32,759 nt of DNA, taken from positions 1-32,759 of the forward strand of contig CACZJR010000010.1 of assembly GCA_902781545.1 (NCBI GenBank), given 5' to 3'. The stretch comes from an uncultured Spirochaetales bacterium. GTDB lineage: Bacteria; Spirochaetota; Spirochaetia; Sphaerochaetales; Sphaerochaetaceae. The notes beneath the pieces were generated by a model, which was not told the origin of the DNA, ran no database searches, and saw only the letters and a program-made list of their open reading frames with translations. A program made the translations under genes and the position numbers. Shown one piece after another: positions 10,423-25,717 of this stretch; positions within the stretch are counted from its first letter, which is position 1; the number at the start of each line of letters is the position of its first letter.

Positions 10423-10920
10423 ATGGAACTCTGGGATATCTACGACATCAACAAGAACAAAACAGGCCGCACCATGGTCAGAAACGACTGGACCATGAAG
10501 GAAGGAGACTATTATCTCTCCGTCCTCGGTGTGATCCACAGGCCTGACGGCAGGTTCCTCATCACCAGAAGGGCCATGGACAAGGCCTGGGCTCCCGGCT
10601 GGTGGGAGATTCCCGGAGGCGGAGTCAAAGCCGGAGAGACATCATTTGAGGCAGTCTGCCGAGAGGTCCTTGAGGAGACAGGAGTAGATGTCTCAAAGGC
10701 GGAAGGCGGCTACCGCTTCTGCTATCACAGGGAGAACAAGGGCCAGAACTACATCGTGGACATCTACCGCTTCGAGATGAATATCACGGACAAGGACGTC
10801 AGGCTACAGACAGATGAGGACATTGACGGCAAGTTCGCCACCCTTGATGAGATCAAGGCCATTGCCGAGGAAGGAAAGTTCCTCCACTACAGCAGCATCA
10901 AGGCAATCTTCGAGTCTTAA
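10423..10920 (+). CDS. NUDIX hydrolase
   Basis: A 165-residue NUDIX protein opening [20 protein letters not shown], like the isopentenyl-diphosphate-isomerase-like NUDIX subgroup (YfcD-type). The NUDIX box is [24 protein letters not shown] (residues about 66-89), with all the Glu residues that bind magnesium in place. It would hydrolyse a nucleoside diphosphate linked to another moiety, substrate unknown. The start is fixed by the conserved N-terminus even though no Shine-Dalgarno precedes it. The TAA stop shares a TTAA with the stop of the convergent glutamine synthetase gene. Confidence 0.9.
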
Positions 10921-13016
10921 TCAACGTAATGCAGGATGTCCCCGTAGGTCGGGAACGGCCAGTACACGCGTCCTACCAGAAGCTCAAGCTCATCTGCAAC
11001 CTTTCTCGCATCCTCCATTGCCGGGACTATGCACTGACGGCAGAAATGGGAGAGCTCCGAGCCTCCGTGAGACTTGCTCTTCTCGATCAGGGATGAGAGT
11101 ACATCACATCTTTCGGAAAGCACATCCATCAGAGAGCTGATTTTTTCCAGAAGAGACCGCTCAACCTTACACGAGAGTGCCGGGTTGGCAGTTTTCTTGG
11201 CATTGATGCTCTGAGCCATGATACTAGTGTAATAACTTACAGCTGGTATGATCTCCTGGACTATCATATCGCGCATCGTCAGTGCCTCGATATTGATGGT
11301 CTTGCAGTACTCGTCAGTCAGGATCTCAAAGCGGGAATGCATCTCAAGCGGGCTGAAGACACCGAACTCCGCAAAGAGGTCAATGTTCTTCTTGGCCACA
11401 AAAGCATCAAGGGCCTCAGGTGTGGAGCGGAGGTTCGCAAGTCCTCTTCTGGCTGCCTCATCAAGCCACTCAGGTGAGTAGTTGTTTCCGTTGAACACAA
11501 TCCTCTTGTGCGCGTTGTATGTGTCGCGGATCAGGTCTGTCACGGCCTGCTCAAAGTCCTTGGCTCCCTTAAGCTTCTCATAGAAGGACCTGAGCTCCTT
11601 GGCCACGATTGTGTTCATCACGATGTTCGGACCTGAGACGGAGAATGAAGAGCCAAGCATCCTGAACTCGAACTTGTTTCCGGTGAAGGCGAACGGGGAT
11701 GTCCTGTTGCGGTCGGTGGTGTCCTTTGAGAAGGACGGAAGGACATGGACTCCGAGCTCCATGCTTATCTTCTGGGCACCCTTTGCGCTCTTACCCGCGG
11801 CAATTGACTCAAGGATCTCAGTCAGGTCGCTTCCGAGGAACATCGAGACAATCGCAGGAGGTGCCTCGTTGGCCCCGAGCCTGTGGTCGTTTCCGGCACT
11901 TGCCACAGAGACCCTGAGAAGGTCCTGATACTCGTCAACGGCCTTGATTACGGCGGAGAGGAAGAGCAGGAACCTGAGATTGTGCTTCGGGTTCTTTCCA
12001 GGATCAAGGAGGTTCATTCCGGTATCTGTGGAGATGGACCAGTTGTTGTGCTTGCCGCTTCCGTTCACACCTGCGAACGGCTTCTCATGCAGAAGGCACA
12101 CAAAGCCGTGACGCTCTGCGACCTTCTTCATCATGTCCATGGTGATCTGGTTGTGATCAACGGCAACATTGGTTGTGGCAAAGACGGGTGCAAGCTCATG
12201 CTGGCACGGGGCAACCTCATTGTGGCGGGTCTTGGCGCTGACACCCAGCTTCCAGAGCTCCTTGTCCAGGTCCCTCATGAACTCGGCCACACGGGTCTTG
12301 ATGGCTCCGTAATAGTGGTCATCCATCTCCTGGCCCTTGGGTGCCCTGGCCCCGAAAAGCGTGCGCCCGGTGAAGATCAGATCCCGTCTTCTGACAAAGT
12401 CGCTCTTGTTGATCAGAAAGTACTCCTGCTCGGGTCCGACTGTGGTTATGACACGCTTCACGTCATCTCCGAAAAGGCTGAGGATCTTCACCGCCTCTGA
12501 GCTGATGGCCTCCATGCTTCTGAGCAACGGTGTCTTCTTGTCCAGGACCTCTCCCGTGTAAGAGCAGAAGACTGTGGGTATATACAGGACATCATCACGG
12601 ATGAAGGCATAACTTGTAGGGTCCCATGCGGTGTAGCCGCGGGCCTCGAACGTGGCGCGCAGGCCTCCTGACGGGAAGGATGAACCGTCAGCCTCACCTT
12701 TGATCAGGCATTTTCCGGAGAACTCCAGGAGCACGCGGCCGCCCTCCGCAGGATTTACAAAGGAGTCATGCTTCTCGGCTGTTATTCCGGTCATGGGCTG
12801 GAACCAGTGGGTGTAATGGGTGCAACCGTGCTCCAGCGCCCATGTCTTCATGGCATTGGCAACGCTGTTCGCCACGGCAAGATCAATGTCCTTGCCCTCG
12901 GCGATTGTGCGGCGCAGAGTCTTGTAGATGTCCTTCGGGAGCTTCTCCCTCATGACGTTGTCGTTGAAAACCAGACTTCCGAAATAATCAGCCACTGTCT
13001 CCATGAAAAACCTCAT
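10917..13016 (-). CDS. glnN: Glutamine synthetase type III
   Basis: GSIII, the large dodecameric form, forming glutamine from glutamate, ammonia and ATP; about 699 residues, as expected. Signatures are [27 protein letters not shown], the metal-ligand segment [21 protein letters not shown] and [21 protein letters not shown], all intact, so it should be active. Two starts are possible: ATG 13016, with no Shine-Dalgarno but a TATATA box seven bases upstream, or ATG 13004, with AGG six bases upstream. Its end overlaps the NUDIX stop by four bases. It is divergent from a degenerate glutamine-synthetase-like gene, so it is likely the working enzyme of the pair. Confidence 0.95.
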
Positions 13017-13042
13017 GTTTCTGTATATAGTTATGACTTCTT

Positions 13043-13098
13043 CTACTTTATTTCAGCCAAACCGTCAACTTATTTGAAATAAAAACTGGAAATAAAGT
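13043..13098. repeat. Three GAAATAAA(GT) half-sites between the two glutamine synthetase genes
   Basis: ACTTTATTTC at 13045-13054 is the exact reverse complement of GAAATAAAGT at 13089-13098, and a partial third copy GAAATAAA lies at 13076-13083, 13 bases from the second. The 11-mer CTACTTTATTT at 13043-13053 recurs at 10399-10409 in the merR/NUDIX intergenic space. These may be half-sites for a nitrogen-related regulator; AT-richness weakens the case. Confidence 0.4.
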
Positions 13099-13103
13099 AT
13101 AAT
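13074..13103 (+). promoter_or_regulatory. Promoter of the glutamine-synthetase-like gene
   Basis: TTGAAA (13074-13079), an 18-base spacer and a consensus TATAAT (13098-13103), followed by a GGAGG Shine-Dalgarno six bases before ATG 13126. Both half-sites of the preceding repeat entry on this strand overlap the promoter. Confidence 0.7.
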
Positions 13104-13125
13104 AGGTACTGTTCTGGAGGACAGC

Positions 13126-14379
13126 ATGGACAGCAAAACCCGTGACAGGATCATGGCTTTCATCGAGGAGCAGGACGTCAGGTTCGTCAAGCTCGCATTC
13201 TGCGACATTTTCGGACAGCTGAAGAACATCTCTATCAGCGCCAAATCACTGCCCAAGGCAATGGAGAGAGGTGTGGGCCTCAATGCCGCATCCATAAGGG
13301 GCTTCTTGAACATAGATGACTCAGACCTGCTGCTCTTCCCTGATCCGGACACACTGACAATCCTTCCCTGGAGACCTGCGGACGGAAAGGTGGCCCGCTT
13401 CTTCTGCGAGATCCGGCAGTCAGACGGAAGCCTGTTTGACGGCGATGTCCGCTCAATGCTTAAAACCTATGAGAAATCACTGATCAAGTCCAAAATAAGC
13501 CTTCAGGCAAGAACTGAGATAGAATTTTATCTCTTCAAGAAAGATGCGGACGGAAACCCGACAGACATCCCAATGGACCGTGCCTCCTACTTTGAGGCCG
13601 CCCCGATCGACAAAGGAGAGAACATCAGGCGTGAGATATGCCTGAACATGGAGCAGATGGGAATCACCTATGTGGCAAGCCACCATGAGAAAGGCCCCGG
13701 CCAGAATGAGATCCGCTTCAGCCCTGCCCCGCTTCTGGATGCAGCCGATCATCTGGTAACCTTCAAGGACATAGTGAAGATCACTGCGGACCGGATGGGT
13801 CTTTTCGCGTCATTTTTACCGAAGCCGCTTTTCAACGAGAACGGATCGGGTCTTGCCATCAGCCTTTCACTTGACAAGGCAAAGGCAGCTGACAGAGGCG
13901 CCCTTGCAAGGCAGATGACAGGCGGAATCCTCAGACGAATAGAGGAGATCACACTCTTCTTAAATCCCATCGCAAACTCCTATGAGAGGATCGGTACGTT
14001 CGAGGCGCCTTTTGCAGTCAACTACGGACTTGGCAACGGAAACTACCTGATCAAGACCCATCCTGAGGCCGCAAGAGTCAAGGTCAGAAGCACGGACCCG
14101 TCCTGCAACCCCTATCTTGCCTGCCTGCTTCTTGCTGGAGCCGCCATGGAGGGCATACGCGACAATCTCAATCCTGATGACTTCCAGACCGGCTCAGAGC
14201 TCCCTGACACACTCAATGACGCCATCAAGCGTGCGGAGAAGTCAGAGTTCGTGACCACGATGATCCCGCAGGTGCTCTTTGAGAAGTTCCTCCAGGCAAA
14301 GCGTGATGACTGGCTTGAGAGCTCCCTCTCAGGAGATCCGATGCTTAAGGCCAAGAACATGGAGTTCCCTGTCACATGA
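13126..14379 (+). CDS. Glutamine-synthetase-like protein with degenerate active site
   Basis: A 417-residue type I glutamine synthetase homologue with beta-grasp and catalytic domains. Ligands of the first metal are kept: E131 and E133 (TEIEFYLF), E188 (SHHEKGPGQ) and E195 (QNEI). By eye alignment to E. coli GlnA, the second-metal ligands are lost: NGSGMH is NGSGLA, so H269 is A244, and RIEVR is RVKVR, so E357 is K319. The arginines of NRSASIRIP are changed (NGNYLIKTHP), and the ammonium-site Asp50 is Asn (LNAASI). NSYER, TDPSCNPYL and the E327-like FEAP remain. Ordinary glutamine synthesis is unlikely; a regulatory, ligand-sensing or altered ligase role is possible. The stop overlaps the membrane-protein gene (ATGA). 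Confidence 0.88.
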   Translation: MDSKTRDRIMAFIEEQDVRFVKLAFCDIFGQLKNISISAKSLPKAMERGVGLNAASIRGFLNIDDSDLLLFPDPDTLTILPWRPADGKVARFFCEIRQSDGSLFDGDVRSMLKTYEKSLIKSKISLQARTEIEFYLFKKDADGNPTDIPMDRASYFEAAPIDKGENIRREICLNMEQMGITYVASHHEKGPGQNEIRFSPAPLLDAADHLVTFKDIVKITADRMGLFASFLPKPLFNENGSGLAISLSLDKAKAADRGALARQMTGGILRRIEEITLFLNPIANSYERIGTFEAPFAVNYGLGNGNYLIKTHPEAARVKVRSTDPSCNPYLACLLLAGAAMEGIRDNLNPDDFQTGSELPDTLNDAIKRAEKSEFVTTMIPQVLFEKFLQAKRDDWLESSLSGDPMLKAKNMEFPVT

Positions 14380-15503
14380 GAAAGACAAAAGAGAAGAAAA
14401 AGAAGAACAGGCGCTATCTCAGCTCCTATGAGATCGAGCTCTCCGGAGTGGGCAGCAAACTCTCCGAGTATTACGACTACGATGAGAAGAAGAAGGTCTT
14501 TGAGATTCCCCTTCACTATGAGAAGGCAAGCGACCTCTACTGTCCCAATGTCGACTTCAAGGAAAAACCCAACATCTCCGACGAGACAACAGACAACATG
14601 GTCGATCTTCTCCAGGACATACCAGACGGAAGGAAGGCCGAATTCTCCATTACAATCGACGACTATGAGGGGATAGCACCCGGCAAAGTGCTTGAGGGAA
14701 TCAACGATGCCCTGGCTCTGAGGCACCTCAGGTTCATACATGAGGACACGGCAAAGGGCATCAAGGTGGGAATGCTGATGTTCTTCGGAGCATCACTGAT
14801 CCTGCTGAAGACCTACGGGATCCTGTTCGGATGGTGGGGCGAGGGAAATGTCTCAAGCGACCTCTTCACCTACATCCTGGATATCTTCGGCTGTGTCCTG
14901 ATCTGGGAGTCAATATACGGTGTTTTCGTGGACCGTTCTGAGGAGATAGCTTTCGAAAAGGCGATATCGAAGAAGGTTCACGCCATCAAGCTCTATGATG
15001 AGAGCGGAAACAAGGCACTTTCCGGCGAGGGCAGTTCAAGCCTAATAACAATAATGGGCAGGAACAAGAAAAAGCAGATATCAAACCGCCTGCTGCTTCT
15101 GAGCGGGTTCTCCCTTCTTGCAGCCTCCGTGTCCGACATATTGTGGACCATCCAGAACGCATCCACATTCGTCGAGTACGGCCGTCTCTCGGTGATCGTC
15201 GCAGCAGTCACAGGCCTGATCTCGGCCATGGTTATAGCAAGGGTCGGACTTGTCGCCATAAGCATTTACAGGGGCAGATTCACCAAGAACATCACAGGCG
15301 CCATACTGACTGTGATAATGCTTGGAATCCTTGTGGGAAATATCGTCACGCTGAACATAAACGCCAGGGAGGTCATGATCTCGACCATCTTCAAGATCAT
15401 CGTGGAGGCAGCCTTTGTCGTAGGTCTTGTCCTGAGATTCTCCTACTTCATTGAGCTCAACAAGTCCTACAGGGAGAAGCACAATACGGAAGCCGGGAAA
15501 TAA
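14376..15503 (+). CDS. Hypothetical six-helix membrane protein coupled to the glutamine-synthetase-like gene
   Basis: I do not recognise this 375-residue protein. Residues 1-125 are hydrophilic, starting with a very basic stretch (KTKEKKKKNRR), then acidic and probably folded, ending HLRFIHEDTAKG. Six hydrophobic segments follow at about 128-150, 162-185, 238-258, 268-297, 305-326 and 335-358, with a charged cytoplasmic-type loop at 186-237. The tail LNKSYREKHNTEAGK is basic. No signal peptide or known transporter motif is seen. The ATG overlaps the preceding stop as ATGA, so both proteins are made together and may interact. It ends two bases before the convergent ABC exporter gene. Confidence 0.82.
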   Translation: MRKTKEKKKKNRRYLSSYEIELSGVGSKLSEYYDYDEKKKVFEIPLHYEKASDLYCPNVDFKEKPNISDETTDNMVDLLQDIPDGRKAEFSITIDDYEGIAPGKVLEGINDALALRHLRFIHEDTAKGIKVGMLMFFGASLILLKTYGILFGWWGEGNVSSDLFTYILDIFGCVLIWESIYGVFVDRSEEIAFEKAISKKVHAIKLYDESGNKALSGEGSSSLITIMGRNKKKQISNRLLLLSGFSLLAASVSDILWTIQNASTFVEYGRLSVIVAAVTGLISAMVIARVGLVAISIYRGRFTKNITGAILTVIMLGILVGNIVTLNINAREVMISTIFKIIVEAAFVVGLVLRFSYFIELNKSYREKHNTEAGK

Positions 15504-24088: not shown

Positions 24089-25128
24089 CAGACGCTCATG
24101 TGCATCTCAGGGACTGGAACCAGAGTAGCAAGGAGACCGTGCTCCACGGCATGCTCACAGGTGCCAAGGCAGGCTTTGACATCTTCTTCGACATGCCTAA
24201 CACAAACCCTCCTGTGACATCACGGGATGCAGCCCTGAAGAGACTTGAGCTTGGCAGTGATGCAGAGAGACAGCTTGGGAAACTTGGTTATGATGTCCAT
24301 TACCACATCTATCTGGGCCTGACACAGGACAAGGACCAGATCGCAGAGATGGTCAGGACCTACAATGACCTTTTCCCGAAGGTCTGCGGCCTGAAGCTGT
24401 TCGCATCCCAGTCCACAGGTAACATGGGGATAATCGGAAAGGATAATCAGTACGGAATCTGCAGGGCTCTTTCTGAACTCGATTACAGAGGAGTCCTTGC
24501 CGTTCACTGTGAGAAGGAGGAGCTCTTCAGGCCTGATGAGGTCTCCCATTCCAAGAAGAGACCTTCTGAGAGTGAGGAGGCATCTGTCCGCGACCAGATT
24601 GAGAATGCTGAGAGATCAGGCTTCAAGGGAAAGCTCCATATCGCCCACATCAGCACCGAGGGTGCGCTGGATGCCGTTAGAGAGGCCAGAAGACGTGGCA
24701 AGATCAGAGTAACATGCGGAGCCACCCCGCACCACATCCTCCTGAACTCGGATTCAGAGAGCATGATCGTCAAGATGAATCCCCCGCTCCGATCGGAGTC
24801 AGACCGCCTTGCAGTATGGAACGCGCTCTTTGACGGAACCATAAACTGGGTTGAGAGCGACCATGCGCCACACACCCTGGAGGACAAGGAAAACGGGGCA
24901 AGCGGAATTCCCGGCTTTGAGGGGATGATCCTGACGATACAGGCTCTCAGGAAGGCCGGCATGACAGAGGCAAGGCTTACAGAGCTTTTCTGCACCAACG
25001 CCCTGAGCACATTCGGCATAGAAGAGAAATCGTCCCCCGTACCTGAAGTCACACAGCAGATGCTGGACTCCGCCCGCTCAGCCTACCCTTTCTCCGCCTG
25101 GAATACTCAGTCAATTACTGGAATCTGA
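24085..25128 (+). CDS. pyrC: Dihydroorotase PyrC
   Basis: Zinc amidohydrolase that closes carbamoyl aspartate to dihydroorotate. The 347-residue protein starts directly at the first metal motif, TDAHVHLRD, so it lacks the small N-terminal beta domain of longer type I enzymes. Further signatures are DMPNTNPP, GLKLFASQSTG, LAVHCEKEE, IAHIST and ESDHAPHT, with the metal-binding His and Asp. The start is GTG 24085, after GAGGAG and overlapping the pyrDK stop as GTGA. Its last six codons overlap the end of the convergent toxin gene. It is the last gene of the operon. Confidence 0.94.
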   Translation: MTDAHVHLRDWNQSSKETVLHGMLTGAKAGFDIFFDMPNTNPPVTSRDAALKRLELGSDAERQLGKLGYDVHYHIYLGLTQDKDQIAEMVRTYNDLFPKVCGLKLFASQSTGNMGIIGKDNQYGICRALSELDYRGVLAVHCEKEELFRPDEVSHSKKRPSESEEASVRDQIENAERSGFKGKLHIAHISTEGALDAVREARRRGKIRVTCGATPHHILLNSDSESMIVKMNPPLRSESDRLAVWNALFDGTINWVESDHAPHTLEDKENGASGIPGFEGMILTIQALRKAGMTEARLTELFCTNALSTFGIEEKSSPVPEVTQQMLDSARSAYPFSAWNTQSITGI

Positions 25129-25162
25129 TTCATTCTGTTGTCTGCAGTCAATTACTGAATCT
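25108..25162. repeat. 13-bp direct repeat at the pyrC/toxin junction
   Basis: CAGTCAATTACTG occurs at 25108-25120 and again at 25145-25157, 37 bases apart, and similarity continues (GAATCT versus AATCT). The first copy encodes the end of pyrC, the second lies in the 3-prime part of the toxin gene. No third copy is seen beyond the antitoxin. Confidence 0.6.
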
Positions 25163-25422
25163 ATAAAAACGTCATGGCCCTCAACTGTGAACAGTGCCTT
25201 GTACCTTCCTTCAAATAAGGCACTCCGATATGGCAGGTTTAAATTCGACAATACATGATCAGACGGAAACTGAAACGGGTTTTCCTTGATTCTTTCTTTT
25301 TTTTCCTCAAATGAAAACTGTAATCTTCTTGCTGCGTGAGGGCTGACTCTGGAAAGAAAAGTGATATGGTTCAGTAGTTGCGATCTAACTCTTGTCGCCA
25401 GGATTACTCTGTATTTTTCCAT
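25111..25422 (-). CDS. RelE/ParE-family toxin
   Basis: A 103-residue small basic protein, MEKYRVILATRVRSQLLNHITFLSRVSPHAARRL, then LPYRSALFEGRYKALFTVEGHDVFIDSVIDCRQ, the beta-strand pattern of RelE/ParE plasmid-stabilisation toxins. RelE members cut mRNA on the ribosome, ParE members poison gyrase; which applies cannot be told here. I choose ATG 25422, nine or so bases after GAGGAA; the in-frame ATG at 25458 would deepen the overlap with the antitoxin. The start lies inside the antitoxin gene (38-base overlap). The end overlaps pyrC by 18 bases, which is unusual for an essential gene and suggests recent arrival. Confidence 0.82.
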   Translation of the reverse strand: MEKYRVILATRVRSQLLNHITFLSRVSPHAARRLQFSFEEKKERIKENPFQFPSDHVLSNLNLPYRSALFEGRYKALFTVEGHDVFIDSVIDCRQQNESDSSN

Positions 25423-25717
25423 AGCCCGGATTCCTCTCTGCCACGGAGATGATTTCATCCATCTCCTTCAACACATAATCTGCATCATAGCCCTTGAATC
25501 CGTTCCTTCTCTCTTCTCTGGCAGCGAGAATGTCGTCCAAAGCAGTCCTGTCTTGTGGAGACAAAGACAGGTTCAGAGGAACAGCTTTCTCCCTCACAAT
25601 CTGAGTCAGAAACATGTTGATTGTCCCGCTCATTGTCATTCCAAGCTGGGACAGGACATCCTCTGCCTGTTTTTTCAAGTTTGAATCGATTCTGATGCAC
25701 ATGTTGACGCTTGGCAT
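25385..25717 (-). CDS. RelB/DinJ-family antitoxin
   Basis: A 110-residue antitoxin. MPSVNMCIRIDSNLKKQAEDVLSQLGMTMSGTINMFLTQIVREKAVPLNLSL is the ribbon-helix-helix domain of the RelB/DinJ family, which binds DNA and represses its own operon. The C-terminal half (QDRTALDDILAAREERR onward) should wrap the toxin. It is encoded first, as usual, and overlaps the toxin gene. AAGGAG lies eight bases before ATG 25717. A promoter with an embedded palindrome lies just upstream. Confidence 0.88.
   Translation of the reverse strand: MPSVNMCIRIDSNLKKQAEDVLSQLGMTMSGTINMFLTQIVREKAVPLNLSLSPQDRTALDDILAAREERRNGFKGYDADYVLKEMDEIISVAERNPGYGKIQSNPGDKS

Follow-up and report, generated by a model that had tools for sequence, protein, structure and literature searches.

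The window, by which we mean the whole stretch of 32,759 nucleotides that was analysed, comes from an uncultured Sphaerochaetaceae genome of herbivore-gut origin (93% complete) and encodes a 417-residue glutamine synthetase (GS)-like protein, hereafter GSL (13126..14379, + strand). GSL matches two GS families above their Pfam cut-offs (PF00120, E 2.9e-64; PF03951, E 1.6e-22), its AlphaFold model has a pLDDT of 84, and a Foldseek comparison aligned it with solved type I GS at E 2e-39 and TM 0.85-0.89; the protein has the type I GS fold, with an N-terminal beta-grasp domain and a catalytic domain. Its scores lie below the cut-offs for type I GlnA (TIGR00653, 290.3 vs. 429.15 bits), gamma-glutamylputrescine synthetase (NF045547, 163 vs. 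650 bits), and the TIGR03105 ligases (175.9 vs. 469.6 bits), and its active-site residues, described below, mark it as a putative pseudoenzyme. Immediately downstream, the GSL stop overlaps by four bases (ATGA, 14376..14379, +) the start of a gene for a 375-residue membrane protein (14376..15503, +), in which hydropathy places six membrane segments after approximately 125 soluble residues; both the overlap and this topology agree with an earlier sequence-only reading of the locus.

On the opposite strand lies the gene for a type III glutamine synthetase, GlnN (10917..13016, -), which the sequence-only reading had taken to be intact and in which all Pfam domains are indeed present (PF12437, PF18318, PF00120). 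The 109-base intergenic region between the two genes (13017..13125) contains a promoter-like TTGAAA-18-TATAAT element upstream of GSL (13074..13103, +), which as a pattern only matches 11 of 12 consensus bases, and a similar element is found upstream of GSL in two further genomes, G001 and G007. The divergent arrangement of GSL and GlnN is kept as one neighbourhood in all eight members of the GSL clade discussed below, and GlnN also lies near the corresponding gene cluster in many more distant relatives. The other GS genes of the window genome, two in number, are all of type III. The second of these (contig C7, L008) is located between an asparagine-synthase-like gene and a CTP synthase gene, and this locus is probably what is left of the place where the ancestral nitrogen cluster lay. 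In G007, GlnN (L041) is as distant from the window GlnN as are those of remoter species, despite an 88% identical GSL, and it is possible that glnN was replaced there by recombination.

Residues were placed by aligning GSL to Bacillus subtilis GlnA and relatives, using the metal, glutamate and ATP residues listed in PMC6529630 and, for reference residues, S. Typhimurium numbering. E131, E133, E188 and E195 are all kept in GSL. The first metal site (n1) is complete, as is the glutamate-binding set, in which reference E131, N264, G265, R321 and R359 correspond to GSL E133, N239, G240, R288 and R321; Glu327 is retained as E293. In the second metal site (n2) E129 is kept and two ligands are gone, leaving the six-ligand set incomplete: His269 is replaced by A244 (13855..13857, +; A, T or S in 8/8 clade members, H in 85/85 other rows) and Glu357 by K319 (14080..14082, +; K in 8/8, E in 85/85 others). 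The ATP-site set is likewise broken, with K310 for Arg344 (14053..14055, +; K in 8/8, R in 85/85 others). G305 replaces Arg339 (14038..14040, +; R in 1/8 clade members and 85/85 others), and N53 stands in place of the catalytic Asp50 (13282..13284, +; N in 8/8, D in 84/85 others), so that none of the catalytic residues Asp50, Arg339 and Arg344 is present. The 85 comparison rows, from spirochaetes and clostridia, comprise 73 named loci and 12 from further genomes, a few genomes being counted twice. Since the motifs flanking the ligand sites (NGSG, SHHE.GPGQ, and DP.CNPYL) align unambiguously, the missing His and Glu ligands are not replaced elsewhere in the GSL sequence. The alignment therefore bears out the pattern that had been read by eye, namely four retained metal ligands and the loss of His269, Glu357, two arginines and Asp50.

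The eight proteins that share these losses, apart from that of Arg339, which one of them keeps, belong to one uncultured Sphaerochaetaceae genus, and the recurrence of the losses in eight genomes argues against sequencing error. They form a monophyletic clade (SH-aLRT 100) in a quick tree, with the G006 protein basal and the clade nested in the spirochaete branch of the GlnA-like family, and they represent full-length reading frames from eight species with 69-90% identity to the window GSL. The closest named relatives are spirochaete metagenome-assembled genomes from water buffalo rumen, roe deer rumen, and horse faeces. No GSL gene was found in viral contigs or in G004, a 95% complete genome of the same genus, indicating that GSL is dispensable within the genus. 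The losses are concentrated on catalytic positions: among 102 columns conserved outside the clade, 12 are catalytic, and of the eight columns lost in all clade members four are catalytic (hypergeometric P 0.006, columns being treated as independent here and in the next comparison). Relative to the sister group, five of 13 lost columns are catalytic (P 0.0008). One of these five is N264, which is Ser in most relatives and Asn in 7/8 clade members; as aligned, this is a shift towards, not away from, the classical glutamate site.

When compared with the type I GS of B. subtilis and of methanogens (PDB 4lni, 8s59), GSL is 35-36% identical and shares the fold, the first metal site and the glutamate-binding residues, whereas it lacks the second metal site, R344, R339, Asp50, and Arg62, and its Glu flap is one residue shorter. 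A passage of PMC2667176 (citing Wyatt 2006 and Grassi 2006) describes lengsin as a pseudo-GS of the vertebrate lens, which, according to that passage, keeps the type I GS fold but not the activity. GSL, predicted from its residues to be inactive, is similar in this respect, although lengsin as described there belongs to the vertebrate lens and has an altered N-terminus, and GSL is bacterial with a nitrogen gene context. A GS fold that lacks catalytic residues and is kept by selection is what defines a pseudo-GS, and GSL has these properties; its likeness to lengsin is an analogy, and we do not claim common descent. The pseudo-GS as such is thus known from vertebrates, and a bacterial example was not found described in the literature searched, which lacks most subscription journals.

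By sequence and by its position in the tree, GSL is a member of the GlnA-like family that is encoded in glutamate synthase (glt)-GlnA-ANTAR clusters. A frequent gene order in relatives is GltB1-GltB2-(ferredoxin-oxidoreductase)-GltB3-GlnA-ANTAR-PyrG, with GlnN near by. Outside the clade, the GS-like gene is directly followed on its own strand by a gene for a receiver-ANTAR antiterminator, as recognized by Pfam, in 72 of 73 named relatives, and the same holds for G006 within the clade. The cluster resembles one for nitrogen assimilation in C. saccharobutylicum, in which the ANTAR protein NitR induces GS/GOGAT genes (PMC6316151), and ANTAR leaders have also been associated with GS genes beyond this case (PMC3369936). 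The GlnA-like proteins of this cluster in clostridia and spirochaetes are direct relatives of GSL (43-56% identity). In the 82 ANTAR partners, the receiver Asp57 is Asn in 69 and still Asp in nine, and none of the 82 retains the D12/D13 acid pair, making phosphorylation unlikely as the input to these regulators. As an observation in its own right, the phosphorylatable Asp is missing from 73/82 cluster receivers (e.g., L045:7477-8046 and L047:9983-10552), and regulators of this predicted non-phosphorylatable type are probably the rule in glt-glnA clusters. Other ANTAR proteins, such as AmiR and NasT, are controlled by a bound sensor protein (AmiC on AmiR, and NasS on NasT). By analogy, a GS-like protein that is the fixed neighbour of an ANTAR protein would be a natural candidate for the sensor input.

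The window clade differs from these relatives in lacking the catalytic residues and, in 7/8 members, the ANTAR gene beside the GS-like gene. Neither an ANTAR protein nor a glutamate synthase (PF01645) was found in the window or in the rest of the 93% complete window genome, and glutamate synthase was likewise not found in G001, G008, G009, and G002, although several of these genomes are only 67-80% complete. Near the genes, a simple scan for loop patterns turned up no convincing ANTAR-type tandem hairpins. With no ANTAR protein in the window genome, the ancestral output of GSL appears to be gone. The basal G006, however, combines a GS-like protein that has the same dead site with an adjoining ANTAR gene, and with a large glutamate synthase elsewhere in the genome; on the quick tree, therefore, loss of the catalytic residues preceded that of ANTAR. 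The window genome also has glutamate dehydrogenase-family genes, and with these and two type III GS it seems not to need GSL as an enzyme.

The membrane protein had been described in the sequence-only reading as unassignable, and this is borne out in that no Pfam or NCBIfam family matches it above cut-off, the best Pfam score being 12.9 bits for DUF2231, against the 26.4 required. The same reading had proposed that GSL and the membrane protein are coupled and that their co-occurrence be examined, and the distribution of the genes does not support the coupling. A membrane gene follows GSL in only three of the eight clade members (G000, which is the window genome, G001, and G008), and beside GSL relatives outside the clade none was found. 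The stop/start overlap is not conserved among the three pairs, the junction being a 4-base overlap in G000, a 16-base gap in G001, and a 7-base gap in G008. In G007, G009, G002, and G003, another gene directly follows GSL and leaves no room for the membrane gene, and the close relatives without it are on intact contigs. No match to the membrane protein was found in viral contigs or plasmids, and among 393 Spirochaetota genomes a full-length match was present in the window genome only; in G168, a 95-residue stretch matches (E 1e-4) inside an open reading frame of other make-up. Its structural model, based on only three sequences, has a pLDDT of 51. The soluble front and helices one and two of the membrane protein align weakly with small two-helix proteins of approximately 194-209 residues, found in G003 (25% identity, E 5e-9) and in three of 391 Clostridia genomes (E 4e-10 to 6e-4). 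These proteins lack the last four helices, and the stretches read around their genes showed no GS-like gene. The membrane protein is an occasional neighbour of GSL, and the gene distribution led us to reject it as a fixed partner.

Several explanations of GSL may be weighed against these observations. The loss of catalytic residues, together with the absence of GSL from G004, could be taken as signs of a decaying pseudogene. Pairwise dN/dS of GSL, however, is 0.04-0.18 (ratios that are rough, as dS is near saturation), in the same range as for the neighbouring GlnN, and full-length frames are intact in eight species; it follows that GSL is not decaying. K310, K319, and N53 are also invariant across the clade, and we consider a pseudogene, rejected on dN/dS, to be extremely improbable. 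Alternatively, GSL may still be an enzyme, but one that catalyses a different reaction, such as a gamma-glutamyl transferase working with one metal or a ligase acting on some other amine. The retained glutamate residues, n1 site and Glu327 (E293) would suit such a role, as would the variability of the flap Glu327 across the family (K, Q, S, D or R in 18/85 rows), and GS-fold enzymes for polyamines and ethanolamine do exist (PMC6529630). Yet all six metal ligands are present in the GS-fold ligases known (PMC6529630), whereas GSL has lost two of the three n2 ligands in addition to R339 and R344 and is not accompanied by a biosynthetic gene cluster; we give a changed enzyme a small but real chance.

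The role favoured by the sequence-only reading, a sensor or adaptor dedicated to the downstream membrane protein, draws on the ATGA overlap in the window, on the gene order and orientation shared by G000, G001, and G008, and on the location of the membrane gene in the slot held elsewhere by ANTAR. It is at odds with the absence of that gene beside five of eight clade members and all other relatives, with a divergence three to four times faster than that of GSL (dN 0.217 vs. 0.053 between G000 and G001), and with a similar constraint on GSL where the membrane gene is absent, and we regard it as unlikely. What stands of this proposal is its more general part, that a GS fold kept after catalytic loss is likely a ligand sensor, which is consistent with strong purifying selection, an intact glutamate site and losses concentrated on catalytic residues; the specificity for a membrane protein present in only 3/8 members does not. 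It is also conceivable, albeit quite improbable, that GSL is a regulatory subunit binding the type III GS encoded divergently from it, which is its neighbour throughout the clade, lies near the cluster in many relatives and is the one GS type that the genome has apart from that of GSL. Hexamers are stacked in different ways in type I and type III GS, which makes a mixed ring unlikely, and the adjacency may reflect nothing other than shared promoter DNA.

The explanation that we favour, with roughly an even chance of being right, is that GSL is a catalytically dead type I GS that descended from the GlnA-like member of a glutamate synthase/GlnA/ANTAR nitrogen cluster and now senses glutamate or glutamine for nitrogen assimilation. 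The combination of a kept glutamate pocket and lost chemistry suggests such a nitrogen sensor. GSL would most likely still assemble into a GS-type ring and bind glutamate or glutamine with one divalent metal, while ATP-driven phosphoryl transfer should no longer be possible. Counting against this explanation are the kept Glu327 and flap, which might support a different reaction, the dispensability of GSL in the genus, and the absence of ANTAR from the window genome and of convincing ANTAR-type hairpins near the genes. The ancestral GS-like protein may have passed its ligand state to the adjacent ANTAR antiterminator, whose receiver is mostly non-phosphorylatable. In the window genus, the catalytic site would have been lost first, with ANTAR disappearing afterwards, as did glutamate synthase in most members, so that the present GSL would report glutamate/glutamine status to nitrogen assimilation without catalysis. 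Its likeliest target may be the divergent type III GS or its expression, given that the divergent arrangement is kept in all eight members, or else an unlinked regulator, and the membrane protein would be an optional, lineage-specific output. There are precedents for regulation by GS in the control of GlnR by glutamine-bound GS (PMC9249791) and in catalytically dead GS mutants of Fusarium that keep regulation (PMC3829961).

More tentatively, and as a possibility that we hold with less confidence, the whole GlnA-like cluster family may be a GS-fold sensor that controls non-phosphorylatable ANTAR antiterminators by direct contact, comparable to AmiC/AmiR and NasS/NasT, with type III GS making the glutamine. 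The window clade would then stand at the end of this line, its protein sensing glutamate/glutamine independently of ATP and acting on a new output. In bacteria, GS is already known to act also as a nitrogen sensor, although it does so while catalytically active. If our explanation is true, a GS kept by selection after the loss of its chemistry separates sensing from catalysis and provides a natural test of the dual-role idea. The wider pattern, in which GS-like genes are fixed beside genes for mostly non-phosphorylatable ANTAR proteins, also means that cultured gut bacteria could be used to test whether a GS-like sensor acts directly on RNA antitermination.

Other divergent GS-like proteins were encountered in the survey. 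A second GS-like clade (clade B; L055-L058, in G005, G010, and G003:C180) occurs in the same genus, with metal ligands kept and Lys in place of the flap Glu327. A clade B contig assigned to G007 (C33) is 99.5% identical over 10.9 kb to one of G005 (C87; L055, L056), across two species bins; the G007 copy is probably a binning artefact or contamination, and was left out as evidence for two coexisting copies. In L150 and L157 (Oscillospiraceae, Fournierella massiliensis), E129 has independently changed to Ala and Arg occupies an ATP-site Asn/His position, with ANTAR adjoining, and judging from these residues the proteins are possibly a second pseudo-GS. Elsewhere in the window, two small overlapping open reading frames (25111-25717, minus strand), the upstream one of which resembles a RelB/DinJ-type antitoxin by eye, possibly encode a toxin-antitoxin pair.
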